From Bacteroidota bacterium (GTDB lineage: Bacteria; Bacteroidota; Bacteroidia; B-17B0; Aurantibacillaceae), in contig JAFLBH010000001.1 in the NCBI GenBank assembly GCA_017303905.1, forward strand, positions 1,713,809-1,777,808: 64,000 bases of DNA, read 5' to 3'. The position numbers and the translations under genes are program-made. The notes under the pieces were generated by a model that saw only the letters and a list, made by a program, of their open reading frames with translations, did no database searches and was not told where the DNA came from. Positions within the stretch are counted from its first letter, which is position 1, and each line of letters opens with the position of its first letter. Positions 43,363-58,043 of the stretch are shown here, piece after piece.

Positions 43363-45561
43363 TTAAACCTTAATACCAACCAAAGTAATGTCATCTACCT
43401 GCTCAATATTACCTATCCATTCACTGAAAGTTTTATTCAGTAAAGCTTGTTGTTCGCTTAGACTAAGGTGAGCGTTGTTTACTAAAAGTTCTTTCAGATT
43501 TTTGCTCATAAACTTTTTGCCTTTTGGTCCGCCAAATTGGTCAGGGAAACCATCTGTTAAGGCGTAAATCATGTCTCCGCTTTGTAAATCGATGGTATGT
43601 AAGGTAAAGGCTTCCGTATCGCGATCATGTTTTCCTACCGGCATTTTATCGGCTTTAATTTCAATAATGGAGGCGGAGCTCTTGTCGGGTCGAGCGAAGT
43701 CGAGACCTTTTCCGTTTTCGCTGTCTTTCTCGACTTCGCTCGAAATGACAGTGACCGGTCTTACTATCCACACCGGATTATGCGCGGCTGCAACCAATAG
43801 TTGTTTGTTCTTGTTATCAAATACAATTAAACTGCAATCCATTCCGTCTTTTCCACCTTCGGCGCTACCGTCTTTTTTTAAACGGTTAATGATGTTTCTG
43901 CGGGTTAAATCCAAAATCTCGGCAGGGTTGGAGGTTTGCTCCACGGCTTTTTCTAAACTGGTAATGTTAAGTAAACTCATAATAGCACCGGGTACACCAT
44001 GCCCTGTGCTGTCGGCCGTTACAAAAGCGAAATTTCCATTCAGCAAAGTGTGCGACCAATAAAAGTCACCGCTTACCACATCTTTGGGTTTAAACAGTAT
44101 AAAGTAATTGTTAGGTTTTAAATAAGTATCTAATGATTCTTTAGTGGCCAGGAAGCTCCGTTGAATTCTCTCGGCATAGTTAATACTATCGGTAATTTCC
44201 TTATGCTTTTCTTCAATGATTTCTTTTTGCGCGTGCGTTTCTTTTTCTTTTAACTCAATAATGGCTTTCTGTTTATTAGCAAGAATAAAGCGTTTATAAA
44301 GTAATGCGGAGAATATTACAACAATAAGTAGAAGACTTACAATTGAGTAAATTATTAATTGCTGTCTTTTCTTTTCTTCCGAATTTATTAAGGCCTGTTC
44401 CTGTGCTTGAGCTTTCAACTCCGTTTCTTTTTTTTCAACTTCAAATTTTGTTATTAAATCTCCTAATTGTTTGCTGTTCTCTGCGTTAAATATGCTGTCG
44501 TTTATTTGCTTAAATGTTTTGTAATTTAAATATGCAGATTTGAAATTACCTAGATTAAATTCTGCTTCAGATAAAAGATTGTAACCATCCTTTAAAAGAT
44601 CAAGACTGTTGATTTCTTTAGAAATCGAAATTATTTTTCTAGCTTCTTCTATAGCTAATTTATAGTTTGACAGTTCAATATTGATGGTAGTAATGTTTAA
44701 TAATGTTGTTGCTATACCTTTTTTATCCCCTAATTCCTCTTTTATTTTTATTGATTTGTTGAAGTATTCTAATGCATTTGGATAGTTGTTTTGTAAATAA
44801 TAAATACCACCAATATTATTATAGCAAAACGAGAGTCCTTTTTTGTCTCCGATTTCTTGTTTTATGGCTAGAGCTTTGTTGTAATAATCTATTGCCTTGC
44901 TGTAATTACCCTGATCTTCATAGATATTACCAATGTTATTATAGCAGGCAGACGCTCCTTTTTTATTTCCAATCTCCTCATTAATTTTTAATGATTTAAA
45001 ATAGTATTCTAAAGCCTTGGGGAGGATACTTTGATTTTCATAAACAATACCAATGTCAGAATAACTTGCCGCGATCTCTTTTTTATCCTTTAGCTCTTCA
45101 TTTATTTTTAAGGCTTTTGTATAATATTCAACTGCTTTAGGAAAATTGCTTTGGTTCTCATATATAATACCAATATTGGAGTAGCAAGTAGCGATTCCCT
45201 TTTTATGCCTCAGTTTTTCATTTATTTTTAAAGCATTGAAATAATATTCTAATGCTTTCGAATAATCACCTTGCGCCTCATAAATACCGCCGATGCTATT
45301 AAAGCATTTTGAAATTACTCTTTTAGAATTTATCTTTTCACTTAGTTTTAAACTTTGGTTATAGAATTGCAGAGCAGTATCGAAAGAGTAGTTTGAACGA
45401 TAATATTCACCTATTAAAAATAAATTACGGGCTTTAATAGTATCCTCTTTAGTGGTATTATTAAGTTTTAAAAGAGAGTCCAGCTTTTTGTTTTGACCAA
45501 CAAGTATGTTTATTAATAAGCAAAAACAAACAAAATAATACAGAATAAGTTCCTTTTTCAT
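43363..45561 (-). CDS. TPR-membrane-PP2C (SpoIIE) serine phosphatase with repeat-derived insertion
   Basis: This 732-residue protein has an N-terminal signal/anchor and about seven TPR repeats of 40 residues (about 55-340), several with KGxxxCYxNIGxIYexQ. A coiled coil follows, with a membrane helix (about 403-425: LIIYSIVSLLLIVVIFSALLY), a second coiled coil and a cytoplasmic SpoIIE/PP2C domain (about 480-732). The phosphatase shows FILFKPKDVVSGDFYW, FVTADSTGHGVPGAIMSLL, GGKDGMDCSLIVFD and DMIYALTDGFPDQFGG, so the metal-binding Asp residues are present. Such proteins dephosphorylate anti-sigma-factor antagonists or similar partners. Residues about 600-628 (with ISSEVEKDSENGKGLDFARP) are an in-frame insertion encoded by a palindromic DNA repeat; they interrupt the usual sequence between the AAAHNPVWIVR strand and IIEIKADKMPVG. 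Confidence 0.9.
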   Translation of the reverse strand: MKKELILYYFVCFCLLINILVGQNKKLDSLLKLNNTTKEDTIKARNLFLIGEYYRSNYSFDTALQFYNQSLKLSEKINSKRVISKCFNSIGGIYEAQGDYSKALEYYFNALKINEKLRHKKGIATCYSNIGIIYENQSNFPKAVEYYTKALKINEELKDKKEIAASYSDIGIVYENQSILPKALEYYFKSLKINEEIGNKKGASACYNNIGNIYEDQGNYSKAIDYYNKALAIKQEIGDKKGLSFCYNNIGGIYYLQNNYPNALEYFNKSIKIKEELGDKKGIATTLLNITTINIELSNYKLAIEEARKIISISKEINSLDLLKDGYNLLSEAEFNLGNFKSAYLNYKTFKQINDSIFNAENSKQLGDLITKFEVEKKETELKAQAQEQALINSEEKKRQQLIIYSIVSLLLIVVIFSALLYKRFILANKQKAIIELKEKETHAQKEIIEEKHKEITDSINYAERIQRSFLATKESLDTYLKPNNYFILFKPKDVVSGDFYWSHTLLNGNFAFVTADSTGHGVPGAIMSLLNITSLEKAVEQTSNPAEILDLTRRNIINRLKKDGSAEGGKDGMDCSLIVFDNKNKQLLVAAAHNPVWIVRPVTVISSEVEKDSENGKGLDFARPDKSSASIIEIKADKMPVGKHDRDTEAFTLHTIDLQSGDMIYALTDGFPDQFGGPKGKKFMSKNLKELLVNNAHLSLSEQQALLNKTFSEWIGNIEQVDDITLVGIKV
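43687..43750. repeat. Palindromic repeat element inserted in a coding sequence
   Basis: TCGAGCGAAGTCGAGA (43690-43705) and its exact reverse complement TCTCGACTTCGCTCGA (43728-43743) flank a 22-base loop. The ATTTCGAGCGAAGTCGAGA-type sequence is, to my knowledge, a dispersed intergenic palindrome in many Bacteroidota genomes; here it lies inside the phosphatase gene, in frame. Confidence 0.8.
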
Positions 45562-57139: not shown

Positions 57140-57580
57140 GGTTTTACAGGTCGCCCCTCCGGGGCTACAGAAGAAGGTTGCTCTAGGGTTATAGATAGGA
57201 CGCTCCTACGGAGCTTGTTGAAATGAGGTGAGGATACGTGCAATGAATTAGTTCTAAAAAGTCCCGCAGTGAGGATTTAAATTGAACAGAACAAAAATTT
57301 ATACAAATAGCCCTGCAATTACGGTCTAAAAAACACAAGAAAACACAATCCAAAAAGTCCCTTAGCGACGACCTAAATAGAACACAAGATAAATGTAATC
57401 CAAAAAGTCCCGTAGGGACGACCTAAATAAAACACAAGATAAATGTAATCCAAAAAGTCCCGTAGGGACGACCTGTTTATAGATAAAAAAACAATAACAA
57501 TCCAAAAAGTCCCGTAGGGACGACCTATTTAAAGAAGAAAATATAAATACAAAAAAGTCCCGTAGGGACGACCTATTTAT
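57140..57580. repeat. Palindromic repeat cluster upstream of a Y1 transposase gene
   Basis: Five copies of a 24-base unit, CAAAAAGTCCC then GTAGGGACGACCT with small changes, lie at 57351-57374, 57401-57424, 57451-57474, 57503-57526 and 57550-57574, spaced about 50 bases. A degenerate copy lies near 57255-57279. The core GTCCC-GTA-GGGAC is a short hairpin. Two other short palindromes, CGCCCCTCCGGGGC (about 57151) and GCTCCTACGGAGC (about 57206), precede them. Spacers are AT-rich and partly repeated. Confidence 0.85.
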
Positions 57581-57581
57581 C

Positions 57582-58043
57582 ATGCCGAATTCATACACAC
57601 AGTTATATATACAAATTGTTTTCGCGGTTAAGGGAAGAAAGAGTTTAATAGCGAAAGAGAATCGCGAAGAGCTACAAAAGTATATGACAGGGATAGTACA
57701 AAATCGCGGACATAAAATGTTGGCTATTTATTGTAATCCGGATCATGTTCATATTTTCATTGGGTTAAAGCCTACACAATCAGTTTCCGATTTAGTTCGA
57801 GATGTTAAAGCATCATCATCCGGTTTTATTAATGAAAAGGGATGGGTAAAAGGTAAATTCAGCTGGCAAGAGGGGTATGGCGCCTTTTCTTATTCAGGGT
57901 CGTCTTTAGATAATGTGATAAATTACATTCTTAATCAGGAAGAACATCATAAGAAGAAGAGTTTCAGGGAAGAATATATTCAGTTTCTCAAGGAGTTTTA
58001 TATCGAGTACGATGAAAAGTATTTGTTTGAGGAGATAGAATAG
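57582..58043 (+). CDS. IS200-like Y1 (HUH) transposase
   Basis: This 153-residue protein of the Y1 transposase family has the HUH metal motif in YCNPDHVHIFIGL (His-x-His near residue 65). The helix with the expected catalytic tyrosine lies in WQEGYGAFSYSGSSLDNVINYILNQEEHHKK. Length is normal for IS200-type TnpA. No tnpB accompanies it. Its ATG follows the last palindromic repeat by seven bases, so the promoter probably lies within the repeats. Like REP-associated (RAYT) transposases it may be a domesticated or repeat-mobilising enzyme rather than a full insertion sequence. That link is inferred from adjacency. Confidence 0.88.
   Translation: MPNSYTQLYIQIVFAVKGRKSLIAKENREELQKYMTGIVQNRGHKMLAIYCNPDHVHIFIGLKPTQSVSDLVRDVKASSSGFINEKGWVKGKFSWQEGYGAFSYSGSSLDNVINYILNQEEHHKKKSFREEYIQFLKEFYIEYDEKYLFEEIE

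Follow-up and report, generated by a model that had tools for sequence, protein, structure and literature searches.

The phosphatase gene examined here raises the question of how a long, perfect inverted repeat came to be translated inside a catalytic domain, and what kind of element the repeat represents. The gene lies in the window, i.e. the whole stretch of 64,000 nucleotides that was analysed, and has the following features.

43363 to 45561, minus strand: gene for a TPR-repeat SpoIIE (PP2C-type) serine phosphatase of 732 aa (PF13424, 4.6e-43; PF07228, 4e-20; fold match 6k4e).
43366 to 44037, minus strand: C-terminal SpoIIE/PP2C catalytic domain; the Pfam match in the profile search is split by the insert.
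43672 to 43758, minus strand: protein segment added by the insert, PVTVISSEVEKDSENGKGLDFARPDKSSA(S), located in a β-hairpin turn, net +27 residues relative to compact homologues.
43683 to 43750, no strand assigned: REP-like doublet of two inverted hairpin units with the tags facing outward (from inverted-repeat search, genome-wide copy layout and covariation).
43683 to 43708, plus strand: unit B (inverted), TGTCG-GG-TCGAGCGAAGTCGAGA-CC-T, antisense reading G-L-D-F-A-R-P-D.
43709 to 43724, no strand assigned: spacer separating units A and B, giving a plus-to-minus core spacing of 38 versus 37 in several other doublets of this genome.
43725 to 43750, minus strand: unit A, TGTCA-TT-TCGAGCGAAGTCGAGA-AA-G, read V-I-S-S-E-V-E-K.

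Assignment of the protein to the SpoIIE/PP2C phosphatases was based on the PF07228 match, the conserved metal-binding Asp motifs of the domain (GDF, DSTGHG, TDG and DD), all of which are intact, and the nearest fold. Among solved structures, the SiaA PP2C domain 6k4e comes closest in both sequence and fold (fold match, E 2.2e-18). The AF2 model shows a confident fold with a mean pLDDT of 84.6, and the insert, flanked by strands at residues 160–165 and 193–198, has a pLDDT of 43–51 across most of its length. The insert is modelled as sitting in the β-hairpin turn as predicted disordered sequence, and judging from the sequences it would be near-neutral for the phosphatase. The same 3.95-Mb genome carries about 50 SpoIIE-type phosphatase paralogues, an unusually large set.

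The arms of the inverted repeat, TCGAGCGAAGTCGAGA (43690–43705) and its complement (43728–43743), are perfect over 16 bp and lie 22 nt apart, in frame within the PP2C domain, as the first-pass annotation had described. The repeat search extended the arms to 23 nt with 87% complementarity (43683–43705 and 43728–43750). None of 100 first-order Markov windows contained perfect inverted arms of 16 bp separated by a loop of 60 or less; the real window has two such repeats, the second of which (35962) looks like a terminator. In the 3.95-Mb genome the core TCGAGCGAAGTCGAGA occurs in 11 exact copies and in 45 copies at up to two mismatches, as compared with 0 for the reversed control. A chance palindrome was ruled out by the Markov windows together with the copy number. 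The first-pass annotation was therefore right about dispersal, and the repeat is not a unique sequence. Its description as a single palindrome was not upheld, since each arm is part of its own 26-nt hairpin unit and the feature is hence a doublet of two units.

The consensus of the REP-like, TGTCA-tagged unit family found in this phosphatase, referred to below as family A, is TGTCA-xy-TCGAGCGnAGTCGAGA-y'x' (26 nt), in which the tag TGTCA stands unpaired on the 5' side of a small hairpin. Among 186 units from five genomes, complementarity was found at the outer stem pair y-y' in 91% of units and at x-x' in 88%, versus 44% and 32%, respectively, expected from composition, and the tag and the bases outside it are without covariation across the stem. 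The covariation of xy with y'x' indicates that what is conserved is the hairpin. A known structured RNA was dropped as a candidate, the Rfam search of the element having given no match. Single units might adopt a particular DNA structure (a GNA triloop with G.A mismatches), but standard nearest-neighbour DNA folding gave them no unusual stability. A literature search for the 16-mer TCGAGCGAAGTCGAGA found no report.

Genome-wide counts were obtained by pattern searches and from short extracted stretches, and most of the genomes compared are MAGs. The copies in the phosphatase-bearing genome make up 37 sites, 35 of which are outside genes, in agreement with the proposal that the element is normally intergenic; the in-gene exceptions are the SpoIIE phosphatase and a PurL linker. 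Inverted doublets account for 13 of the 37 sites, several with core starts 37 nt apart (38 in the phosphatase copy). In the bacterial family the core was found in 52 of 87 genomes, copy numbers across the 87 ranging from 0 to 148, and the tagged unit is present in 26 of 296 genomes drawn from the phylum. In-gene sites, called from open frames no shorter than 90 codons and additionally by Pfam for ten of them, make up 20 of 86 sites in genomes G028, G017, G011 and G002, one or two of these being doubtful, and 5 of 26 sites at loci sampled from G096, G103 and G105. In G061, units of family A also form tandem arrays with 23 to 25 bp spacing (C1:223446-223761 and C1:2077495-2077809). Two sister repeats, TGTCATTTCGAGCGTTAGCGAGAAATC and TGTCATTCCGACCGnAGGGAGGAATC, share the TGTCA tag (L010 and L094; G000:C2:427422 and C4:73873), which suggests a wider TGTC-tagged superfamily in the phylum.

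Compact-loop homologues of the phosphatase have 25 residues from the A-x-N-P-V-W strand to K-x-D-K-M-P-V-G, both motifs counted, versus 52 in the window protein. L105, the closest to the window protein on the core tree (support 84/96), also has 25 residues; by this comparison the window protein has gained 27 residues, in frame, at the β-hairpin turn. The gain falls within the 25–29 residues claimed at first, and the compact loop of L105 removes the objection that orthologues might have a loop of equal length.

A unit of family A occurs in the same turn in the paralogues L040, L085, L090 and L091 of genome G028, in L121 (the same sequence as L344 of G103), in L107, and in L339 of G105. The single-unit loops of L121 and L339 are 34 aa long, exactly +9 relative to 25. 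The core tree, built with the loop removed, gave four gains of the unit, and five once L339 was added. A single origin of the loop insert was rejected on this tree: forcing the unit bearers into one clade cost a delta lnL of 104.5 (p-AU 0.008, tree including L339). Thus, family A appears to have entered the same phosphatase turn about five separate times.

The most serious alternative is that one ancestral insertion occurred in a SpoIIE gene and that gene conversion or horizontal transfer then carried the loop bearing it into other paralogues and genomes. This would explain the common frame and site: orientation and frame are identical in five lineages, the junction R-x-V-T-S-S-E-V-E-K is near-identical, the spacer of the window copy resembles that of L090 in G028 (GACAG..GAAAAGGTCTCGAC), and the G028 paralogues clearly have a common insert. 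Such spread may have involved a short conversion tract confined to the phosphatase loop. However, the cores of the bearers do not group, and every bearer has compact-loop relatives. The stem bases also differ among bearers (TT/AA in the window copy, CT/AG and GT/AC elsewhere), which speaks for separate arrivals; the number of units varies among copies, and proteins unrelated to the phosphatase show the same frame. Spread from one origin is hence considered unlikely, and separate entries are preferred.

The loops of homologues contain many unrelated fillers or no filler, and some relatives have a long loop of other sequence, which indicates that the turn tolerates many inserts; the phosphatase turn is a tolerant landing place. 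Other palindrome families of Bacteroidota also appear to be translated within the loops of SpoIIE paralogues (L073, L085, L038 and L063), with the peptides HAERSRS (in the loop of L073), HAELVSAS (in that of L085), LEAERSRS and ALRQAQG.

Proteins that host family A in frame in relatives are the E2 acyltransferase, with copies in the lipoyl-binding linker in G017, G011, G002 and G103; PurL; valyl-tRNA synthetase (ValS); methionine synthase (MetH); methylmalonyl-CoA mutase (MutA), with a copy at the N-terminus; and two proteins which we take, by sequence recognition alone, to be chorismate synthase (AroC) and a T9SS-type protein. The PurL copies are read from the other strand in two genera (G000:C4:261091-261106, L095; G028:C29:56208-56223, L259) and lie in the linker preceding the glutamine amidotransferase domain, whose length is about that in unit-free orthologues. 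The E2 linker with the unit likewise differs little in length from that of orthologues, and MetH has only about 3 extra residues in the alignment with a solved homologue. A clean insertion in every in-gene case was therefore not upheld; in PurL, E2 and MetH the nearly unchanged length indicates that insertion came with loss or replacement. At the two outer stem positions, 47 of 54 pairs are still intact in the in-gene units, which with few exceptions also retain the tag; hence these units either arrived recently or are under constraint at the DNA level.

The unit can be read in six frames, five of them open and one closed by a stop (the TGA that appears when TGACA is read backwards). The frame V-x-S-S-x-V-E-x is shared by the five phosphatase lineages and by the majority of the other host proteins; a tally compiled by hand from the in-gene site listings put it at 8 of 12 gene families or sites, versus 1/5 expected (P about 6e-4). 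This reading is small, polar and acidic and, as judged from its composition, seems to disturb a host protein less than the other four open frames would; selection after random insertion is thus the simplest reading of the bias. Alternatively, the preference may stem from a bias of the insertion process.

Frame and site also bear on the proposal that the segment itself was selected for, the translated peptide being a new binding or regulatory loop of the phosphatase for which its bearers were kept. Its repeated presence at one turn and in one frame, with the catalytic motifs intact, would fit this. On the other hand, the same peptide occurs in unrelated linkers without a common function, the loop is predicted to be disordered, and homologues have unrelated fillers or none. 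The bases are still hairpin-like (see the stem pairs above), which suggests recent insertion more than tuning at the protein level. We regard this proposal as improbable, slightly more so than spread from one origin. That the inverted repeat was retained for a structure formed in RNA or DNA, for instance by slowing translation or ending transcripts, with the peptide as a by-product, is very improbable: the predicted sense-strand RNA hairpin is very stable (−36.7 kcal/mol, z −4.6) and in-gene copies retain stem pairs, but the long hairpin is missing from the single-unit copies at the same site (L121 and L339) and from compact homologues, and the element has neither an Rfam match nor a T-run.

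Mobilisation of family A as a REP by a RAYT was rejected, since the family is absent from nearly all flanks of the two Y1_Tnp genes in the phosphatase-bearing genome and of about 50 others. Of about 52 Y1_Tnp loci in the bacterial family, no more than 2 have a unit of family A nearby, whereas a different palindrome, GTCCCGTAGGGAC, lies near about 15, and G061, with 148 copies of family A, gave no PF01797 match. From presence versus absence alone, we infer that family A is mobile. The window itself contains a Y1 (RAYT-like) transposase gene (57594–57938), preceded by five spaced copies of GTCCCGTAGGGAC followed by GACCTA (57357–57938).

In-gene REP-like elements are already known, and what is notable here is the repeated entry at one protein site and the frame bias. 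A REPIN consists of two REP units in inverted orientation, marked by a short tag on the outer side of the stem foot. Family A also forms doublets of inverted units. It differs from the RAYT-associated GTAG REPs and REPINs, as far as these are covered in the part of Bertels and Rainey 2011 (PMC3116915) used here, in that its tag is TGTC(A), not GTAG (or GTGG), and that no RAYT gene is flanked by it, the RAYT-like gene of the same genome going with GTCCCGTAGGGAC.

The portion of Di Nocera et al. 2013 (PMC3733652) drawn on here describes GTAG- and CGTC-tagged REPs, some in ORFs. The CGTC class has the tag CGTC or TGTC, lacks a dedicated transposase and counts Bacteroidetes among its phyla; its members have an 8–9 bp stem with A-T at the first and second positions, a loop of 4–5 nt and a CCA-like 3' tail, and inverted dimers are frequent. 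Family A resembles this class, as described there, in having short stem-loops, in its unpaired 5' TGTC tag at the stem foot (consensus TGTCA in all five genomes sampled), its inverted dimers (13 of 37 sites, judged by inversion), the lack of an associated transposase gene (2 of about 52 Y1_Tnp loci) and the location of some units inside ORFs. In contrast, its stem is short and interrupted (TCGAGCGnAGTCGAGA), with only 4 paired positions before the mismatch region; the outer pairs x and y are not fixed as A-T but differ between units, a change on one side being compensated on the other; and there is no CCA-like 3' tail, only a frequent T in the consensus. Given these differences in stem length, fixed A-T pairs and tail, family A is set apart from the class and was not filed as a member. 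In the same portion of that paper, repeated entry at one protein site is given for recB of two Xanthomonas species only, and a frame bias is not described.

Rickettsia palindromic elements (Ogata et al. 2002; Claverie and Ogata 2003; both as cited in the portion of PMC3733652 used) are translated in frame in many unrelated proteins. Likened by that description, family A agrees with them in having in-frame units in known proteins (SpoIIE, E2, PurL, ValS, MetH, MutA and AroC), but belongs to a different phylum, has most copies outside genes in most genomes, and favours one frame in the in-gene ones.

Given the observed dispersal, doublet structure, stem covariation, in-frame gain relative to relatives, several gains on the tree and frame bias, all read from sequence, the feature is probably a mobile, REP-like hairpin element of Bacteroidota, inserted as a doublet in the β-hairpin turn of a SpoIIE phosphatase and translated there, tolerated insertions having been filtered by selection. 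Copying of the element would be blind to the reading frame, and movement would proceed via a single-stranded hairpin, presumably by the action of some enzyme. Insertions of a frame-keeping length, 27 bp for a single unit (two lineages) and 81 bp in the window gene, would survive selection, and the V-x-S-S-x-V-E-x reading would pass it in exposed turns and domain linkers. As many SpoIIE paralogues share the same tolerant turn, the site would be hit repeatedly.

More tentatively, and with somewhat less than even confidence, the family may be a recurrent source of in-frame loop cassettes of 9 residues (single) or about 27 residues (doublet), the unit reading as a benign linker peptide and one phosphatase turn serving as a repeated landing site. 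The addition of sequence to working proteins by small mobile DNA is usually argued from single cases. About five apparent entries at one turn, with compact relatives as controls, would amount to a natural repeated experiment on tolerated insertions; housekeeping enzymes show the same frame again, and tolerance is directly testable in one phosphatase.
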